Below, piece by piece: positions 271 through 9,535 of a stretch of DNA of 64,000 bases (within the stretch, counting starts at the first letter, position 1; the number at the start of each line of letters is the position of its first letter). Origin of the DNA: Acidobacteriota bacterium (GTDB taxonomy: Bacteria; Acidobacteriota; Terriglobia; Acidiferrales; UBA7541); the NCBI GenBank assembly GCA_003224085.1, contig QHYK01000044.1, positions 1-64,000 on the forward strand, given 5' to 3'. A program made the position numbers and the translations under genes. The notes beneath the pieces were generated by a model. The model made no database searches. It worked only from the letters and a program-made list of their open reading frames with translations, and was not told the origin of the DNA.

Positions 271-288
271 GATCGCAATGTTGCGATC
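271..288 (-). terminator. Short palindrome at the CRTAC1 stop codon
   Basis: GATCGCAATGTTGCGATC has perfect 7-8 bp arms and overlaps the stop codon of the first CRTAC1 gene. There is no T-tract after it on the minus strand, so it is at best a weak terminator or a protein site. Confidence 0.2.
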
Positions 289-1993
289 ACGATTTGCCGA
301 ATTCGCGGCGGGAGGTGATGCCCTTTCCTTCGGTGACGGTGATCGTTGCGCCGGCGGGGATGGCGGAAAGACGGTCGAGTTGGCCGCTGGGCCAGCGAAT
401 TTCGATGGAGTCGGCTTTGTCGTGCTGCCCGAGGCCGAAGGTCAGGACGAGTTCGCTGGCGGAAAGATAGCTCAAGCCGCTGTGCAGCATCTTGGTTTGG
501 GTCTCGCCGCCAGCGGTGAGCTTTACAAGGGCGCCGATGCCGTCGCGATTAGACTTCGCGCCCAGGAGCTTGATGCGCAAGCCCCGGTTCGACGCGGCAG
601 CGCCCTTGGCTTCGTTGCGGAACAGGTAGACGGGGCCACCGTTGGTGGAGAGAAGTAGATCGAGGCGGCCGTCGTTATTGATGTCCGCATAGGCCGCGCC
701 GCGGCCGACGCGGGGAGAGGCGAATGCCGCGCTTAGCGATTTCGTGACTTCCTCGAACTTCCCTTTTCCGACGTTGCGGAAAAGATGCGGCGGCATAGCG
801 TATTTCACGTTGGCCTGCACGCGCTGAATGTCCGCATCAATGTGGCCGTTGTGGATAAAAACGTCGGGCCAGCCATCGAGATCGTAGTCAAAGAAGAAGC
901 ACCCGAAGCCGAGCGTGAGCAGCGAGGCGCGGCCGATTTCCGAGCGCGGCGCTTCGTCGACGAAGAGCCCTTTGCCTTCGTTGTGATAGAGCGAAACCAT
1001 CTGGTTCGAGAAATTGGTGATGAGCACGCTGGCGAAGCCGGAGTGATCGTAGTCGGCGGCGTCCACGCCCATACCCGCGCGGGCCACCCCGTCTTCGCTG
1101 AAGGCCACGCCGGCCACGACAGCTTTTTCGCTGAACGTTCCGTTGCCGTTGTTGCGGTAGAGCTTGTTGGGCTGCGTATCGTTGGAGAAAAGAAGATCGG
1201 GCCAGCCATCGTTGTCGTAATCGAGCACGGCGACACCGAGCGTCTTTGAAGTGGCGTCGCCGAGACCGGCCTTCTGCGTCACGTCTTCAAATGTGCCGTT
1301 GCCGCGGTTGTGCCACAGGCGCACGGCCGTGCCCTTGTACGATTCCGGCGTGCAATAGGATTTGCTCTTGCCGTCGAGCGTGCAGTAGAGGTCCGTCCCC
1401 GGCGTCCACTGAACGTAATTGCCGACGACGAGATCGAGGTGGCCGTCATTGTCGTAATCCACCCAGGCGGCGCTGGTGCTGAATTCTTTGGGTCCCTGCA
1501 AGCCGGCTTTTTGCGTGACATTGGTGAAGGTGCCGTTGCCATTGTTGTGAAAGAGATGGCTTTGCCCGTAGGCAGTGACGAAGAGATCGTCGTAGCCGTC
1601 GTTGTCGTAATCGCCGACGGCCACACCCATGCCGAAAAGCTCAATGTCGAGTCCGGCTTTGTGGGTGACGTCGGTGAAGGTGCCGTCGTGATTGTTGTGA
1701 TAGAGCTTGGGCGTCGAGTGCTTCTGAACGTGGCCGGGCCAGTCCGTGCCGTTGACCAGGAAAATGTCGGGCCAGCCGTCGTTGTCGTAGTCAATGAAGG
1801 CGACGCCAGGGCCCATGGTCTCGGGAAGATATTTCTTGCCGAAGGCACCGTTGTTGTGAACGAAGTGGATGCCGGCTTGTTGGGTGACGTCGCGGAATTG
1901 GATGGACGAGGATTCGGGCGGAGCGCCGCTTGACGTTTTCACAAGAAAAACAGTCAATACGAAGATGAGACTTCCGCAAAGCGAAAGATTCAC
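287..1993 (-). CDS. CRTAC1-family FG-GAP/VCBS repeat protein with C-terminal ASPIC/UnbV domain
   Basis: Secreted beta-propeller-like protein. The open frame reaches 2086, but the GTG at 1993 has GGAGG just upstream and begins directly with a signal peptide (NLSLCGSLIFVLTVFLVKTSSG), so I chose it. The body carries many calcium-binding-type repeats of the form DYDNDGWPDIFLVNG or DYDNDGYDDLFV, each followed by LYHNNGNGTF-like strands, as in the CRTAC1/ASPIC family. The C-terminal about 90 residues (NRDGIGALVKLTAGG to IEIRWPSG) match the UnbV/ASPIC domain. The molecular role of the family in bacteria is unknown; binding or display outside the cytoplasm is an inference. A second copy lies at 5885-7576, and the five-haem cytochrome sits between them. 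Confidence 0.85.
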   Translation of the reverse strand: MNLSLCGSLIFVLTVFLVKTSSGAPPESSSIQFRDVTQQAGIHFVHNNGAFGKKYLPETMGPGVAFIDYDNDGWPDIFLVNGTDWPGHVQKHSTPKLYHNNHDGTFTDVTHKAGLDIELFGMGVAVGDYDNDGYDDLFVTAYGQSHLFHNNGNGTFTNVTQKAGLQGPKEFSTSAAWVDYDNDGHLDLVVGNYVQWTPGTDLYCTLDGKSKSYCTPESYKGTAVRLWHNRGNGTFEDVTQKAGLGDATSKTLGVAVLDYDNDGWPDLLFSNDTQPNKLYRNNGNGTFSEKAVVAGVAFSEDGVARAGMGVDAADYDHSGFASVLITNFSNQMVSLYHNEGKGLFVDEAPRSEIGRASLLTLGFGCFFFDYDLDGWPDVFIHNGHIDADIQRVQANVKYAMPPHLFRNVGKGKFEEVTKSLSAAFASPRVGRGAAYADINNDGRLDLLLSTNGGPVYLFRNEAKGAAASNRGLRIKLLGAKSNRDGIGALVKLTAGGETQTKMLHSGLSYLSASELVLTFGLGQHDKADSIEIRWPSGQLDRLSAIPAGATITVTEGKGITSRREFGKS

Positions 1994-2113
1994 TATTCCT
2001 CCGTTTTTGAAACATTGGCCATTTTCCGAAACCAAGCAGCCGATTCCCCGCTCTGCCTGGATGCGGCAGGCGGGCTTGGAAGACAAATTGAGGTGTTGCT
2101 CATACGAAATGCG

Positions 2114-2680
2114 TTACTCGCGACCAACGCCGAGGGCGTCGGCAACGCGATTGATGTAGTTGAACCAGGACGCAATCAGCGTGATTTGCAGGATGCCTTT
2201 GTCGTCGAAACCGACGGCGCGGAGTCTGGCGTGATCATCCGGCGAACACCTCGTGGCGTCCTTGGTCAGTTTCACAACGTAATCGAGCATGGTGCGGTCC
2301 TGCTCGCTAATCGACGCGGTGCGGTAATCCTTCTTCAGCGCTTCGACCATCTCCTCGTTCAGCGTGACGCGACGCAGAAACTCTGCGTGGGAAACGATTC
2401 AATAATGGCAGCGGTTCGTGACCGACACCACGGTGGCAATCATCTCGTGCTGGTGGCGCTTCAGCGGCAAATCGGGCGACATCAGCGCGCCAAACGTGCT
2501 AAAGGCGTGAAAAAGCGCTTCGGGAATCAGCGTGTGACTCGCCACGATGCCCGCGGTCTCTCCGTCATTCACGGGATGCACGGGCGTGGCATATTCGATG
2601 GGATAGAGCTTTCGCTGCGACTCGATGGCGTCCTTGACGCACTGGTCGTCTTCCACGCGGGCTGTCTGGATCCAGGTCAT
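2114..2680 (-). CDS. AhpD-like peroxidase-related protein, probable selenoprotein (in-frame TGA = Sec94)
   Basis: Two open stretches, 2680-2402 and 2398-2114, lie in the same frame and are separated only by a TGA at 2399-2401. The joined 188-aa product matches the carboxymuconolactone decarboxylase/AhpD-like peroxidase-related family end to end: [12 protein letters not shown], then [20 protein letters not shown], then [10 protein letters not shown]-like and [12 protein letters not shown] segments, ending [13 protein letters not shown]. Family members have CxxC followed by His four residues after the second Cys. Here it is C91-H-Y-U94-I-V-S-H98, so the TGA replaces exactly the second redox Cys. 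A SECIS-like hairpin follows at the right distance (2372-2388). GAGG lies about 8 nt before the ATG. Predicted role: thiol/selenol peroxide or alkylhydroperoxide reduction. The alternative is a nonsense mutation. Confidence 0.8.
2372..2388 (-). promoter_or_regulatory. Bacterial SECIS-like stem-loop
   Basis: In the mRNA, 10 nt after the TGA at 2399-2401, ACGCAGA-GUU-UCUGCGU forms a perfect 7-bp stem with a GUU loop. The loop G is the 18th nucleotide after the UGA. Known bacterial SECIS elements have a short upper stem, a G among the first two loop positions, and about 16-37 nt between UGA and loop, so all three features fit. It lies inside the coding frame, as expected for bacteria. Confidence 0.7.
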
Positions 2681-2710
2681 TGTCAGTCCTCAGTTTTCAG
2701 TTGCAAGTTC

Positions 2711-5584
2711 TCAGTGGAACAAAGCCTTCTTTGGCTGAGCGGAAGTAAGTGCGACGCTGAAGTGTTCGTGAATCGGCTGGCGCTCGTTGTTGTCCGCAGG
2801 ATGCGTCTGCCGATACGGACCGGTGATAGCCTGCGCGGATTCATCGGCCTTGAACCGCAAGTAGCGCGCTTTGTGCTCTTCTGCTTTCTTGTCGTTGCCG
2901 AGGCCGTTGTAGCAGAGCATCAGATTGTAATGCGCCTGCAAATCTTCGGGATCGATGGCGAGAGTTTTTTCGAATTCGGCGACAGCGTCGGCGTACCCCT
3001 TTTCGAGGAAAAGGATGCGGCCGAGTTCATTGTGGACGACGCGGTCGCGCGGGAATTGCTCTAACACAGTTTTCAAATGGGTGATGGCGGCGTTGTAGTC
3101 GCCATCTTCCCGGAGAGCCTTGGCGTAGAAGAAATTGGTGCGCGCGAGCTGCGCATCGATGGCCAATGATTTTTCCAGAACTTTGCGCGCTCCTGCGGTG
3201 TCCCCTTCCTGCAAAAACACGCGGCCGATATTGGTCCAGCCGTCGGGATTTTGCGGATCGGCATCGGTGATTTTTTCGAATGCGGCGGCAGCAGCTTTCA
3301 GGTCGCCTTGCAGGAAGAGTCCGATGCCGTAATCGTTCCAGCGGGTCCAGTCATCCTTGACACTGATGGTCTTTGGCGGAGGTGCGGCGGCATTGCGCGG
3401 GAGAACGCGCAGAGTCTTTGTGTCTTCCGCGAGGACGGTGATTGCAAGATCGGGAATGGCTTTCACGTTGCCCGAGACGTTTGAAGTGTCTCCGGTGAAG
3501 GTGAACTTGCGATCGTCATAGTCTGGCGTGGTCTTGGCTGCAGGCGGCGTTGTGCTTGCATTGGCGGCAGTCAGTTTTGCTTCCAGCGCTTCCACACCGG
3601 CAAAAGAGAAATGCGTGTTGTACCAACTGAATTTGCGGTAGTTCAGCTTGGCGTGAAGCGTGATTTTGTCGCCGCAATTTTCCGGAACGTGCAGGCGATA
3701 GTGGGCGGTGTCCGCAGCCCCGGGCGGAATCAGATGTACGTAAACGACGGAGCGCGTAGCCCAGGCATTGCGCTTGTTGATGACGTTGCCGTGGCCGTCA
3801 ATTTGGAGGGAACGATAAAAATGCGCGCCCGGCTCGACGGGGCCTTTGCCGTTGTCCTCGACCTGGCCGCTCCAGAAAATCGTCTGGCCTTTTTCGTCGG
3901 TGGCTTGGAGTTCCAGCCAAACGTCGAAAGCATCGACAGTGCCGCCGGGGAAAAAATGGCCTACCTTGCGCGTGCGAACGACGACATCGACGCGAACATC
4001 GTCGCCGCGGCGCACGGCAGCGGCGGTGCGATCGATGGGAGCGGTAATCGCGCGAAGTTCACCTGCAGGCCCTTTCGGCAGCTCGGCTTCGGATTCTTCG
4101 CCGACGGCAAAAGTTGTGGAAAGTTCCTGTTTGCCTAGTTCGTTGTGAACGGGCGCGTGGGATTCCTTTCCTGCAGGAGAAATGGCAAAAATATCGACGG
4201 AGAGCTGCCTGTCCTGGAGAAATTTCTGGGCGAATTCGTATTGCGCTTCGTCCTGATTGGCGGTGGGCACGGCGGTATTCGCTCCGGGAAACCGATGCGA
4301 ATGCACCAAGCCATTGATGTTGCCGGCATCGTTCGAAGGCACCATCGGCATGTGGCAATCGGCGCAATTCATGGGGCTTTTCGGATAATAGAAAGCGCGC
4401 GCGCCCTGGCCGGAAACGCCGCTGGCTTGCCAGTTGTCGTATTCGTTGAAGCCGCGAATCCAGCGGTAGCGGTTCACAGGGACGTCGAGGTGGACTTTGT
4501 GGCAAGAAGAGCAGAATTCCGCGGTATCGGTGCGCATGAAGGGTTTCAGGAACGTGCGGCGGTGCGGCTCGGGATTGAGGCGCACGACAAAATCGTGGAG
4601 CTTGCGAATGACCGGGTTGTCGCTGGCGGCGAGCTCATGCAGTTTCGGGTATTCGAGGAAAAAGTCGCCCTGACCCATGGTGCTTTTCACTTCCACGATG
4701 CTGTGGCACATCAGGCAGCCTAGGCCGGCGCGCGCTTCGGGGCGATTCACGATTTGCTTGATGGGCGTGTCAAATAAGCCGCTGTAAAGCAGCGCGGGAT
4801 CGTGACAGCCGGCGCACCATTTCGACGAGCGCACGCCGGCGACTTCCTGCATGTACTCGATGCTCTTGCGATACCACTGATTGTTGAAGGAAGAAAAGTG
4901 GTGCATCGAGCTGTTCCACTGCGCATAAATGTCGGCGTGGCAGCGCTGGCAGGCGTCGGATTTCATGAAATATTGCGAGGGGATGTTGATGTCGTGCTTG
5001 GTCTGCGCGGAGCTGGGGAAGAATTTTCCGTTGGAGCCGTCACCCTCGCGGTCCATGGAGTCGGGAGGCATCAGCGGATTGATGATGCGATTGGCGCGTG
5101 CGTCGCGCCAGCCGCCTTCGCGTACGAACCAGAGGCCTCGGGAGACGGCAAAGGTCACGACGACAAGGGAGACAAATCGCAACGCTTGGCTTGCAGTGGT
5201 TTGCCCCAGCCAGCCCCTCGAATGGAGCCAGTCTGCCGAAAGCAAGAGCGAACCGACGACGCAAAGCGCAATATGAGCGTAGAGCCAATTCCAGAGATGA
5301 TGCGGCGTTCCCATTTTGATTAACGCGATGCCGAGAAGGGCACCGGCGGCGAGAAGGATCCAGCCGAAACGGGCCAGCGTGGTACTACTCCAAACGGGCG
5401 GAACCAGAAATGCGATAAGCAGCAGAAAGACGAGGACACCTACCGCAACGTGAAGCAAGTCGACCACGGCGTAAGTAATGGTGGCGGAGGGAAATCCGTA
5501 CAAATACACGGCGCTGAGAGCGAGCGGAATCAGAAAGCGGGACAACCAGCGCTTGGACAACTCAACGCGCATTGCAAGCCTCAT
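2711..5584 (-). CDS. Membrane-anchored five-haem c-type cytochrome with C-terminal TPR repeats
   Basis: A 957-aa protein. Residues about 15-160 contain four hydrophobic segments that anchor it in the inner membrane. Five CxxCH haem sites follow: C212QRCH, C257AGCH, C290LMCH, C358SSCH and C407ADCH, a layout like the cytochrome c554/multihaem families. Residues about 500-660 look like a beta-rich domain, and residues about 730-930 are TPRs (for example AAAAFEKITDADPQNPDGWTNIGRVFLQEGD). A second ATG at 5572 has GAGG six bases upstream and may be the true start. Likely a periplasmic electron-transfer or redox enzyme; the substrate is unknown. It is flanked by two CRTAC1 genes and the AhpD-like gene on the same strand, a grouping that suggests joint function. 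Confidence 0.85.
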   Translation of the reverse strand: MRLAMRVELSKRWLSRFLIPLALSAVYLYGFPSATITYAVVDLLHVAVGVLVFLLLIAFLVPPVWSSTTLARFGWILLAAGALLGIALIKMGTPHHLWNWLYAHIALCVVGSLLLSADWLHSRGWLGQTTASQALRFVSLVVVTFAVSRGLWFVREGGWRDARANRIINPLMPPDSMDREGDGSNGKFFPSSAQTKHDINIPSQYFMKSDACQRCHADIYAQWNSSMHHFSSFNNQWYRKSIEYMQEVAGVRSSKWCAGCHDPALLYSGLFDTPIKQIVNRPEARAGLGCLMCHSIVEVKSTMGQGDFFLEYPKLHELAASDNPVIRKLHDFVVRLNPEPHRRTFLKPFMRTDTAEFCSSCHKVHLDVPVNRYRWIRGFNEYDNWQASGVSGQGARAFYYPKSPMNCADCHMPMVPSNDAGNINGLVHSHRFPGANTAVPTANQDEAQYEFAQKFLQDRQLSVDIFAISPAGKESHAPVHNELGKQELSTTFAVGEESEAELPKGPAGELRAITAPIDRTAAAVRRGDDVRVDVVVRTRKVGHFFPGGTVDAFDVWLELQATDEKGQTIFWSGQVEDNGKGPVEPGAHFYRSLQIDGHGNVINKRNAWATRSVVYVHLIPPGAADTAHYRLHVPENCGDKITLHAKLNYRKFSWYNTHFSFAGVEALEAKLTAANASTTPPAAKTTPDYDDRKFTFTGDTSNVSGNVKAIPDLAITVLAEDTKTLRVLPRNAAAPPPKTISVKDDWTRWNDYGIGLFLQGDLKAAAAAFEKITDADPQNPDGWTNIGRVFLQEGDTAGARKVLEKSLAIDAQLARTNFFYAKALREDGDYNAAITHLKTVLEQFPRDRVVHNELGRILFLEKGYADAVAEFEKTLAIDPEDLQAHYNLMLCYNGLGNDKKAEEHKARYLRFKADESAQAITGPYRQTHPADNNERQPIHEHFSVALTSAQPKKALFH

Positions 5585-5884: not shown

Positions 5885-7576
5885 TCAGAGGGGCTCTATG
5901 CCCTTTCCCTCCTTACACTTATAGGATTTTGAGGCTTGAAGGTCTCTGTATTCCTCGGTGCGGCCGCTGGGCCAGTTGATCACCACGCGGTCGATTTTGT
6001 CGCGCTTGGCTAAGCCGAAGGTGATTGGAAATTCGGATTGCGAAAGATAACTGGAGCCGCCGCGCACCATTCGCCATTGGTGAAGGTCCCCTGCGAATAC
6101 TTGCACGCTAGCGCCGATGGCATCGCGGTTGGATTTCGTGCCTACCAATTCGAATCGGATGCTGTGATTGCCGCCCAATTGATCGTTGCGAAATAGAACT
6201 GCAGGACCGTTGTTGGTGGTCATTAAAATGTCCAAATCGCCGTCGCCATCAAAGTCGCCGTAAGCCAGCCCCCGGCCAACGCGAGGCTTATCGAAGCCGC
6301 CGCCACCTTCTGCCGCCACGTCGCGGAATTCCCCATGCCCTTCGTTCAAGAAAAGTTGCGGCGGCTGCGCGTAGCCAACGTTTCCACGAATGTTGCGAAC
6401 GGTTTCGTCGATGTGGCCGTTGGCGACAGCAAGATCGAGAGCGCCATCCAGGTCGACGTCAAGGAACATGCAGCCGAACCCGAGCGTATTGCGTGAGGGC
6501 GCGCCGACGCCGGAAACGATGGAAACGTCGTCAAAAACTCCGGGGGCGGTCGCGCGATAAAGACCAATCATCTCGTTGTCGAAATTCGTGATGGCGATGC
6601 CGAGCTTGCCGGAGTTATCGAAATCTCCCACGTCTACACCCATCCCGGCGCGGGCTTTGCCTTCGGTGCTAAAGGCCAGCCCCGCTTCGATGGCCACGTC
6701 CTTGAATTTTCCATTGCGCAGGTTGCGGTAAAGCTTGTTCGGCTGCGTGTCGTTGGCGACGAGCAAATCGGGCCAACCGTCTTGGTCATAATCGAGCATG
6801 GCCACGCCGAGCGACTTCGAGCTGCTGTCAAAAATACCGCTGGTGGCGGTGACATCCTCGAAAGTTCCGTTGCCGCGATTGTGGAACAGCCAGCAGGTAT
6901 CGCCACGATACGCTTCCGGCGTGCAGTAGGATTTGTGAGTGCCGTCGAGGCTGCAAAACACGTCGTGTTCCGGGGACCAGCGAACATAATTGCAGACGAA
7001 AAGATCGAGGAAGCCGTCGCGGTCGTAGTCGAACCACAGTGCGGAAGTACTCAATCCTTGGCGGTCAAAAAGACCGCTCGAGTGCGTGACATCCACGAAA
7101 GTGCCTTTGCCCGTGTTGCGAAAGAGGTGGCTCTGGCCGACGCAAGAGATGAAAAGGTCGGGAAAGCCATCGTTGTTGTAGTCGCCAACGGCCACACCCA
7201 TTCCGTAAATTTCGATGTCGAGCCCAGCGGCTTTGGTGATGTCGGCAAAAGTGCCGTTGCGATTGTTGCGGTAGAGGCGCAGCATCGAGCGTTGGCGCTT
7301 GTGGCCGGGCCAGTCCATGCCGTTGAGGAGCACAATGTCCTGCCAGCCGTCGGCGTCGTAATCCAAGAAAGCGCAACCCGAGCCGAGGGTCTCGGGAAGC
7401 AGCTTGCCGCCGTAGGCGCCACTGTTGTGCATAAAACGAATTCCCGCGGCGTCGGTTACGTCGGTGAGGCGAAATCCTAGGTTCGAAGCGGGGGTTGCAA
7501 GTATGCCAGGAGGAAGGCCTGCAACTGCTGCCAAGCCTGAGCCCAGAGTTGTGAAAAGGAAATCGCGGCGGTTCAA
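5885..7576 (-). CDS. Tat-exported CRTAC1/ASPIC-UnbV FG-GAP repeat protein
   Basis: A 563-aa paralogue of the first CRTAC1 protein. It starts with a twin-arginine signal, MNRRDFLFTTLGSGLAAVAG, so it is exported folded, probably with bound metal. FG-GAP/VCBS repeats follow (DYDADGWQDIVLLNG, DYNNDGFPDLFISCVG, DFDGDGDLDILMTTNNG), then the ASPIC/UnbV C-terminus (NRDAIGASVQVFAG to VVINWPSGRTEEY). The ATG overlaps the stop of the response-regulator gene by four bases (ATGA), so the two are translationally coupled. The different export route (Tat here, Sec in the first copy) is notable. The role is unknown. Confidence 0.87.
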   Translation of the reverse strand: MNRRDFLFTTLGSGLAAVAGLPPGILATPASNLGFRLTDVTDAAGIRFMHNSGAYGGKLLPETLGSGCAFLDYDADGWQDIVLLNGMDWPGHKRQRSMLRLYRNNRNGTFADITKAAGLDIEIYGMGVAVGDYNNDGFPDLFISCVGQSHLFRNTGKGTFVDVTHSSGLFDRQGLSTSALWFDYDRDGFLDLFVCNYVRWSPEHDVFCSLDGTHKSYCTPEAYRGDTCWLFHNRGNGTFEDVTATSGIFDSSSKSLGVAMLDYDQDGWPDLLVANDTQPNKLYRNLRNGKFKDVAIEAGLAFSTEGKARAGMGVDVGDFDNSGKLGIAITNFDNEMIGLYRATAPGVFDDVSIVSGVGAPSRNTLGFGCMFLDVDLDGALDLAVANGHIDETVRNIRGNVGYAQPPQLFLNEGHGEFRDVAAEGGGGFDKPRVGRGLAYGDFDGDGDLDILMTTNNGPAVLFRNDQLGGNHSIRFELVGTKSNRDAIGASVQVFAGDLHQWRMVRGGSSYLSQSEFPITFGLAKRDKIDRVVINWPSGRTEEYRDLQASKSYKCKEGKGIEPL

Positions 7577-8202
7577 GGCAGACTCACCAGACCGTTGCGA
7601 ATCGCGTAGGTGACCAGTTCCGCGGTTTTGTGAATGCCGAGCGCATTCATGATGTTAGCGCGGTGCACGGCGACCGTATTCACGCTGAGATTCAAATCGG
7701 AGGCGATTTCCTTGTTCGATTTGCCGGCCACAATATGCTGGAGAATCTCGAGCTCGCGGGGCGTCAATCCGCCGCCGCGTTCGCCCTTGAGCGCGTCTTT
7801 ACGCGAAATCTGAGGATCGAGAACGGTCATGCCGGAGGCGATGCTTTTCACGGCGCTCACCAGGTCGAGGTCCATTGCGTTTTTTAGGACGTAACCGCGC
7901 GCACCAGCCTGCAGCGCCTGGTTCACGAGCGTTTCCTCGGAGTGCATACTCAACATCAGGATTCCCGCCTCGGGATGCGCTTCCAATATTTTTCGCGTGG
8001 CTTCGATGCCGCTCAATTCCGGCATGGCGCAATCCATGACGATGACGCGCGGGCGAAGGTCCGCCGCCAGGCGTACCGCTTCTTCGCCGTCGCTGGCTTC
8101 CGCGACGACGGAGATTGCCGGATCGTCTTCCAACATCCGACGAAAGCCGCGGCGGACCAATGCGTGGTCGTCGGCCAGCAGTACCGTTATTTTATGCGGC
8201 AT
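7573..8202 (-). CDS. NarL/FixJ-family response regulator
   Basis: A 209-aa protein. Residues 1-120 are a receiver domain with acidic pair D11-D12, phospho-acceptor D57 (VIVMDCAMPELSG) and a conserved Lys in GYVLKNAM. Residues about 148-205 are a LuxR-type helix-turn-helix (LTPRELEILQHIVAGKSNKEIA, NTVAVHRANIMNALG). It overlaps the kinase gene by 11 nt upstream and the Tat CRTAC1 gene by 4 nt downstream. This argues for one transcript and for control of the CRTAC1/cytochrome set, though no operator is defined. Confidence 0.93.
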   Translation of the reverse strand: MPHKITVLLADDHALVRRGFRRMLEDDPAISVVAEASDGEEAVRLAADLRPRVIVMDCAMPELSGIEATRKILEAHPEAGILMLSMHSEETLVNQALQAGARGYVLKNAMDLDLVSAVKSIASGMTVLDPQISRKDALKGERGGGLTPRELEILQHIVAGKSNKEIASDLNLSVNTVAVHRANIMNALGIHKTAELVTYAIRNGLVSLP

Positions 8203-9535
8203 GACTTTCCACTTTCTCCCGCGGAATGTGCAGACGGACTTGCGTGCCGCCTTGCGGGCGCGGCGTGACGGCCAGCGTTCCGCCGATCAACTCGGCGCGT
8301 TCGCGCATGGCGACCAAGCCGATTCCGCGTTGCATTTTCTCCGCCACGAATCCCGAGCCACGGTCCTCCACTTCAAGCTCCAATGAATCTCCAGAGTATT
8401 TCAGGCGAACCCAGGCATCGCGCGCGCCCGAGTGGCGGCTCACATTGTTCAGCGCTTCCTGGAGCACGCGATAGATGTGCACGCCGGCGCCCGGTTCGAC
8501 CGGAAAAGGCTTGCCGCTTTTCTCGTAATGCAACTCGATACCGGCCTGCCTTCCTACCGTGGGAATATACCAGTCCAGAGTGCTTTCCAGGCCGGCTTCT
8601 TCGAGCAAAACCGGATGCAGGGCCTGCGAAAGCGTCCTGATGTTGTTCAGAGTGATTTGCGCGATTTCTTGCACTTCTTTCAGGTCGCTATAAAGAGGAG
8701 TTCCCTCCCCTGCCTGTTTGCCGGCGCGGCGCAGCAGCGAGCCGATGGCAGTGAGCACTTGACCAAACTCATCGTGGAGTTCGCGCGAAATGTGCCGCAG
8801 CGTGGATTCCTGCGTGGAAATGAGTTTCTGGGCCAAATCGCTGCGTTGCTCGGAAAGATCGGCGAGACGAGCGAAAAGCCGGCGGTTGCTGCGGATGAGG
8901 TACAAGCTAGTCAGGACGATCGCGATTAGCGTTGCGGCAAGAAACAGATACAGCTGGCGCTGCACGCCGTTATAGATTTTCGCGATGCTCGCGGCCGCCT
9001 GCTCTTCGCCTTCATTATTTTCCACAAGGAGGCGCGAGACGGCGGTGCTGAGCGCCTGCTCGCGCGCCTGCAGGGTCAACCGAATCTGTTCGCGCGCCTC
9101 CGTCTTTTTGCCACTTTGAGCGAGCGCGAACATGCGGTTGACGGCGTCCCAGAACTGCGCGACAGATTGGGTAAGAAATTTTCGCTGGTTTGGCGTGCGG
9201 CTCGCGACGGCCAGACCCTCCTCAAGTTTCATCGCGGCGTCCAGATCCTGCCGGATGCGTTCGAATTGCGCGGTCCAAGCTGTCAGCGGATAGCGTTCGG
9301 TGGTGTCAAGCATGTCACGCATGGCGAGGGCGATGGAATTGAGATCATTTTCGATGCGCAACAATTGCAGCGAGTCTTTGCGATTGCGGTCCACCATTTC
9401 GCTCTGGAGTTCGCGGAGCCCGACGAGTTGTACGGTGATATAGAACGAGTAAGCTAACACCGCAGCTAGAGTGATGAGCAGGCCTAGAAGAAGCCGAGTT
9501 GTGGGTGAACGATGCGAAAAGGCGGCCTTTTGCAC
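8192..9535 (-). CDS. Membrane sensor histidine kinase (HisKA_3 type)
   Basis: A 447-aa protein. TM1 is about residues 17-36 and TM2 about 196-214. The roughly 160 residues between them are charged and helical, like a four-helix-bundle periplasmic sensor. After a short linker comes the HisKA_3 dimerisation helix with phospho-acceptor H254 in RELHDEFGQVLTAIG, then a HATPase domain with an N-box-like ALNNVSRHSGA and G-boxes DRGSGF and GIGLVAMRERA. It is the partner of the overlapping NarL-type regulator. The signal cannot be predicted; the adjacent haem and peroxidase-like genes suggest a redox cue (inference). Confidence 0.92.
   Translation of the reverse strand: MQKAAFSHRSPTTRLLLGLLITLAAVLAYSFYITVQLVGLRELQSEMVDRNRKDSLQLLRIENDLNSIALAMRDMLDTTERYPLTAWTAQFERIRQDLDAAMKLEEGLAVASRTPNQRKFLTQSVAQFWDAVNRMFALAQSGKKTEAREQIRLTLQAREQALSTAVSRLLVENNEGEEQAAASIAKIYNGVQRQLYLFLAATLIAIVLTSLYLIRSNRRLFARLADLSEQRSDLAQKLISTQESTLRHISRELHDEFGQVLTAIGSLLRRAGKQAGEGTPLYSDLKEVQEIAQITLNNIRTLSQALHPVLLEEAGLESTLDWYIPTVGRQAGIELHYEKSGKPFPVEPGAGVHIYRVLQEALNNVSRHSGARDAWVRLKYSGDSLELEVEDRGSGFVAEKMQRGIGLVAMRERAELIGGTLAVTPRPQGGTQVRLHIPREKVESHAA

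Follow-up and report, generated by a model that had tools for sequence, protein, structure and literature searches.

The window analysed here is the whole stretch of 64,000 nucleotides at positions 1 to 64,000 of contig QHYK01000044.1 from an Acidobacteriota bacterium. It contains a cluster of minus-strand genes, one of which carries an in-frame TGA. The features of the cluster are listed below.

7573..9535, minus strand: two-component genes upstream of the cluster, a response regulator with a GerE/LuxR-type domain and a histidine kinase
5885..7576, minus strand: second FG-GAP/UnbV_ASPIC protein, upstream of the cytochrome
2711..5584, minus strand: cytochrome c554-like protein with five CxxCH motifs (counted by eye) and TPR repeats, the upstream neighbour and a lineage-specific partner
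2687..2691, minus strand: probable ribosome-binding site GAGGA, 6 nt 5' of the ATG
2114..2680, minus strand: predicted AhpD-like (TIGR01926) selenoprotein gene, 188 codons plus stop, with ATG at 2680 and TAA at 2116-2114
2399..2401, minus strand: in-frame TGA, codon 94, at the second position of CxxU and predicted to be read as selenocysteine
2372..2388, minus strand: bacterial SECIS hairpin with a 7-bp stem and a GUU apical loop at 2381-2379, assigned from its fold, its conservation and the SECIS rules
287..2086, minus strand: FG-GAP/UnbV_ASPIC repeat protein, the downstream neighbour, whose listed TTG start may be too far upstream

The gene order in the window is histidine kinase, response regulator, FG-GAP/ASPIC, cytochrome, selenoprotein and FG-GAP/ASPIC, all on the minus strand, and 30 nt separate the TGA stop of the cytochrome gene from the start of the selenoprotein gene. 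A preliminary description had placed the AhpD-like gene at 2114-2680, as two same-frame stretches parted by one TGA at the second Cys of a CxxC motif, with His at position 98. These coordinates are correct, with the gene on the minus strand. Translation of 2680-2114 gave a 188-residue AhpD-like protein whose only internal stop is the codon-94 TGA, in the motif C91-H-Y-U94, and with H98 in place.

The same description had claimed a family match over the full length. Most close relatives did align over residues 1-188 or 1-187, but the TIGR01926 profile (peroxidase-related enzyme; 112.9 bits, cut-off 81.8) covered residues 53-185. The Pfam CMD profile was also matched (36.5, cut-off 23), and TIGR00777 stayed below its threshold (21.2 bits, cut-off 191.95). 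Two further profiles of AhpD-related (seleno)proteins, whose names mark possible selenoproteins, were considered and rejected as families for the window protein, which scored far under both cut-offs: NF041238 (AhpD_rel_CFYUT; 55 bits, cut-off 175) and NF053654 (GroundWater_YciW; 33.8 bits, cut-off 310). Similarity to both was detectable in all 28 members scanned.

The closest solved sequences were 2pfx, 3c1l, 2oyo and 6k40, and a search with an AlphaFold model returned the same peroxidase-related AhpD-type entries as the best fold matches; with 2prr, these solved proteins are the best matches to the window protein by sequence and fold. The two aligned chains, 2pfx and 3c1l, have Cys at the site where the window protein would have Sec. 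The model itself was moderate (pLDDT 75, pTM 0.69), with block 91-100, which holds the CxxU site, averaging 70 and 28 residues under 50, among them segments 1-4 and 32-52.

Immediately downstream of the TGA lies a hairpin, ACGCAGA-GUU-UCUGCGU, which begins 10 nt past the TGA and has its loop G 17-18 nt from it. Bacterial SECIS elements have been described by a loop of 3-9 nt, a stem of 4-16 bp, a G in the first two loop positions, a distance of 16-37 nt between this G and the UGA, and a minimum free energy of at most -7.5 (PMC13188914). The hairpin falls within these rules, with a 3-nt GUU loop, G at the first loop position, 7 bp and -8.8 kcal/mol for the 19-nt hairpin. The perfect 7-bp GUU-loop hairpin proposed earlier was confirmed on sequence and fold. 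In folding energy the wider region is unremarkable (z -1.12, equalled or bettered by 31 of 200 shuffles), whereas the conservation of TGA and hairpin codons described below exceeds what chance would give. When a narrow pattern for this SECIS was scanned over the window's own genome, the selenoprotein gene was the sole match.

To follow the TGA and the hairpin among relatives, we used two genome sets. A homologue at E 1e-10 or better was found in 83 of 151 genomes, the window's own included. From this match list 39 close orthologues were hand-picked for high identity and E 2e-50 or better, excluding genome G075 as fragmentary; each had one TGA in its main matched piece (G001 and G026 match in two pieces). 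A species-level genome collection yielded 232 confirmed places, of which 80 loci were analysed. All 110 close loci fetched had TGA at codon 94 and none had Cys, and C91-x-Y-U94 was found in every one, as in the CxxU motif of the AhpD-like TIGR01926 family; these 110 include duplicates from two overlapping searches of the same species, and 81 loci (the window plus 80) remained after overlap was removed. The search design did not disfavour versions with Cys, because the query carried Cys at position 94 and no pattern spanned codon 94. Every close orthologue examined uses the Sec codon.

Codons 98-103 (His-Ala-Glu-Phe-Leu-Arg), which span the hairpin, were nearly frozen at synonymous sites in the 81 loci: CAC in 81, GCA in 80, GAG in 81, TTT in 81, CTG in 80 and CGT in 76. 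Synonymous entropy ratios were 0-0.17 at these codons, compared with a mean of 0.89 and a lowest value of 0.39 elsewhere (103 scored codons, each with the same residue in at least 80% of rows). Codon 104, just beyond the stem, varied freely; the Mann-Whitney test (p 0.0007) was computed on the seven codons 98-104 and so includes it. Outside the hairpin, the most biased scored codon was the Tyr codon before the TGA (window 2402-2404), which was TAT in 75 of 81 loci, and the codon of Y175 was almost as biased, toward TAC.

More distant relatives were represented by 40 hand-chosen second-tier rows with 29-47% identity, mostly the best-scoring ones and some weaker, down to E 7e-13. At the site corresponding to codon 94, 32 of these had TGA, seven had Cys and one had Trp. 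In the 32 TGA rows, 184 of 224 stem pairs were kept, while 2000 shuffles, uncorrected for relatedness, gave a mean of 167.8 and a maximum of 178. Sliding the partner strand kept at most 62.5% of pairs, compared with 82.1% at the true register. The fourth stem pair alternates between C-G and G-C among these relatives, and the stem shows compensatory change. All seven pairs were kept in 20 of the 32 rows; the other 12 fail at this register, and at least one, L133, forms its hairpin in a shifted position.

Sequence downstream of the TGA is under purifying selection. Excluding the hairpin codons, the median dN/dS relative to the window was 0.18 before the TGA and 0.10 after it, taken over the comparisons with finite values (68 of 80 before, 57 of 80 after; the 12 and 23 saturated at synonymous sites were dropped). 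Coding constraint is present on both sides of a conserved UGA, as in a selenoprotein gene. In principle, a frame with a recoded stop could yield two products, and the TGA might then serve as a selenium-dependent switch for conditional truncation that releases a functional 93-residue protein when selenium is scarce. Such a short form would stop just before U94, with neither H98 nor the rest of the second half, and selection after the TGA is at least as strong as before it, so we regard this switch as very improbable.

The TGA could also be a real stop, in an AhpD-like gene that has decayed or been truncated, or an artefact of assembly. TGA does terminate six of the seven neighbouring genes checked, and the fragmentary relatives in G075 (G075:C105 and G075:C151, 66-75% identity), possibly a copy undergoing decay in a different genus of the family, include one piece with TGA and an extra TAA. 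Random residues or further stops in sister species, which the preliminary description had named as evidence against a selenoprotein, were not seen in the 110 loci; the alignment it had proposed, to see Cys or Sec at position 94, gave TGA in every one of them. The presence of the same TGA at all these loci from many assemblies, the low dN/dS past it and the nearly frozen synonymous sites of the hairpin leave these readings next to no chance.

For the selenocysteine machinery, the preliminary description had pointed to selA, selB, selC and selD, counting a lack of selB or selC against itself. All four were found in the source genome (6.8 Mb, 97% complete): selC (tRNA-Sec) with anticodon TCA at 66.4 bits, selB at 352.9 bits (cut-off 242), selA at 561 bits and selD at 344.5 bits over profile positions 17-309. 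SelD is split by a contig break between C18 (18906-19085, locus L124) and C89 (10929-11843, locus L122) of this genome, G000. The N-terminal piece, at the contig end, has a TGA in its active-site motif (VKAAG-U-AAK), and both contig ends read the same stretch after it; SelD thus looks cut by the assembly and is probably a second selenoprotein of the genome.

Among the 39 genomes with a close orthologue, tRNA-Sec was found in 35 and selA in 38; the numbers for the other 112 genomes were 80 and 89 (one-sided Fisher p 0.014 and 0.004). The four orthologue genomes with no tRNA-Sec match are 63-86% complete, and one of them, G025, also had no selA match. Neither marker was found in 17 of the 151 genomes, among which only G025 has an orthologue.

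Alternatively, the TGA could be read as Trp or Cys through suppression or a changed code. One second-tier relative (L149, G116:C29:44600-45700), in a genome with a tRNA-Sec match, carries TGG (Trp) at the position of TGA in its sister rows, possibly a loss of Sec with no change to Cys, and a CMD paralogue in the window's own genome (L127, G000:C13:52297-52536) has Trp for the second Cys in a similar motif (CAYW). However, the use of TGA as terminator by the neighbouring genes, the full set of selA, selB, selC and selD, and a conserved hairpin within the published SECIS rules argue against such a reading, which we consider extremely improbable.

The selenoprotein reading of the preliminary description is strongly supported by the Sec machinery, the conserved TGA, the conservation and covariation of the hairpin, and purifying selection after the TGA. 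Judged from these sequence comparisons, the product of the gene is almost certainly a genuine selenoprotein belonging to the AhpD-like TIGR01926 family, a judgement separate from that on enzyme activity. A pseudogene, a local error or a changed code is very unlikely.

CxxU AhpD-like selenoproteins were already known in bacteria, as the preliminary description had stated. A 2026 review lists 'AhpD-like protein, TIGR01926, CxxU' as a selenoprotein family (PMC13188914), and the same example accession is entered as COG2128 in PMC9312934. AhpD-like COG2128 CxxU selenoproteins were represented by 27 sequences in PMC1088965, and 'AhpD-like 1' was listed with 299 in PMC2398784, which also covers AhpD-like COG2128 CxxU selenoproteins. 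For Acidobacteria, three families and four selenoproteins were counted in PMC1794560, and one acidobacterium with three known selenoproteins was reported in PMC12013277. The window gene shares with the known family (TIGR01926 / COG2128) a CxxU motif with Sec second and a SECIS straight after the UGA. Its subfamily differs in being centred on Acidobacteriota, in its own gene neighbours and in a hairpin that is almost invariant. Our literature search, in which an unnamed subfamily is a difficult target and which did not extend to supplementary files, found no paper on this subfamily and none linking either the permease described below or the term 'peroxidase-related enzyme' with selenocysteine.

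The gene is a well-supported addition to a known selenoprotein family. Proteins of this kind were known before, and the present analysis contributes the near-frozen state of the hairpin, its covariation and the permease context. A gene caller that treats TGA as stop would end the gene at codon 94, so that annotation may show as truncated what is a conserved redox protein in soil bacteria. The deep orthologue set, with its nearly frozen hairpin codons and compensatory changes, makes this gene a clean reference for predicting SECIS elements in Acidobacteriota.

The likely chemistry can be approached through the active site. The proton relay of AhpD comprises Glu118, Cys130, His132, Cys133 and His137, and its equivalents in PA0269 are Glu36, Cys48, Tyr50, Cys51 and His55 (PMC3141380). 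E79, C91, Y93, position 94 and H98 were invariant in 28 aligned members, so the Glu, Cys, His/Tyr, Cys, His set is retained with the same spacing as in AhpD of M. tuberculosis and PA0269 of P. aeruginosa, with Sec standing where these two carry the second Cys. Seven second-tier rows carry Cys94, and in these position 91 is occupied by Ser (five) or Asp (two); position 94 is therefore the retained chalcogen.

The following course can be proposed. SelB with Sec-tRNA would decode the UGA of codon 94, steered by the hairpin just downstream, to give a 188-residue, mostly helical protein of the CMD/AhpD fold. By homology, the U94 selenolate would take the place of AhpD Cys133, with E79, C91, Y93 and H98 filling the other relay places. 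By analogy with AhpD chemistry, U94 would then attack a peroxide or another oxidised substrate, C91 would resolve the product by forming a selenenylsulfide, and reduction would presumably come from a cellular thiol donor.

To our knowledge the TIGR01926 family has been little characterised, and for this reason its enzyme activity is something we infer. Peroxidase-type activity appears the most likely of several thiol reactions. The same CxxU site could instead belong to a selenoprotein that is no peroxidase, such as a thiol/disulfide reductase, a dehalogenase-like enzyme or a redox adaptor, and to this we give an appreciable though minority probability. It is favoured by the debrominase Bmp8 among the fold matches (6ohj, E 6.3e-3), by the description of AhpD as an adaptor protein for AhpC (PMC3141380) and by neighbours that differ from lineage to lineage; the retention of all five relay positions at the same spacing speaks against it, as does PA0269, which has the same Glu/Cys/Tyr/Cys/His set and reduces H2O2, though weakly (PMC3141380).

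The preliminary description had tied the gene to a five-haem cytochrome and a two-component system. Counted as lower bounds, with some loci short, the cytochrome was immediately upstream in 19 of 80 related loci, an FG-GAP gene immediately downstream in 17 of 80, and a gene of a permease cluster (cluster 1, L052-L101) immediately upstream in 21 of 80. The link to these genes is weak, and a general functional tie to the cytochrome is not supported, as the comparison finds the cytochrome in the near clade only. Since neighbours change with lineage, the cytochrome and two-component genes are no general clue to function.

The permease-cluster gene overlaps the selenoprotein start in 15 of the 21 loci (L070, with a masked start, was set aside), in eight of them by 4 nt. 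L084, the sole cluster member scanned, is an APC-type amino-acid permease; the others were grouped with it by blastp clustering. As labelled, the 21 loci comprise nine from Pyrinomonadaceae/Blastocatellia/gp4 Acidobacteria, three from Gemmatimonadota, one from Latescibacterota and eight from other Acidobacteria. Lineage-specific neighbours, chiefly this overlapping permease-like gene, offer a lead on the substrate of AhpD-like selenoproteins. We suggest, as a speculative and rather unlikely possibility, that the gene belongs to a Sec-fixed soil subfamily that has changed operons and acquired varied partners, including the APC-type permease gene, with the stop codon of which the selenoprotein gene often overlaps. 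It might then perform a selenium-dependent step tied to the import of an amino-acid or thiol substrate, not general peroxide defence.

In a tree of 121 rows, quick and midpoint-rooted with a long-branch warning, the 81 close members formed one group (SH-aLRT 98), and the residue at position 94 required three changes. As labelled, the 81 include four Gemmatimonadota and one each of KSB1, Latescibacterota and Planctomycetota, and the gene may possibly have been transferred between phyla. A plasmid search gave 240 records, every one under 60% identity. One locus labelled Betaproteobacteria (L049, contig CAJCHZ010000047.1) groups within the window's own acidobacterial clade and has coordinates matching G006:C47, from the same genus; it is probably a mislabelled record. 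Near the gene, 14 loci (L090-L118) have a recurrent cluster of large proteins, of which one scanned member is AMP-binding/acyltransferase, and another cluster, repeat-rich and TPR-like by eye, occurs in nine loci of the same range.
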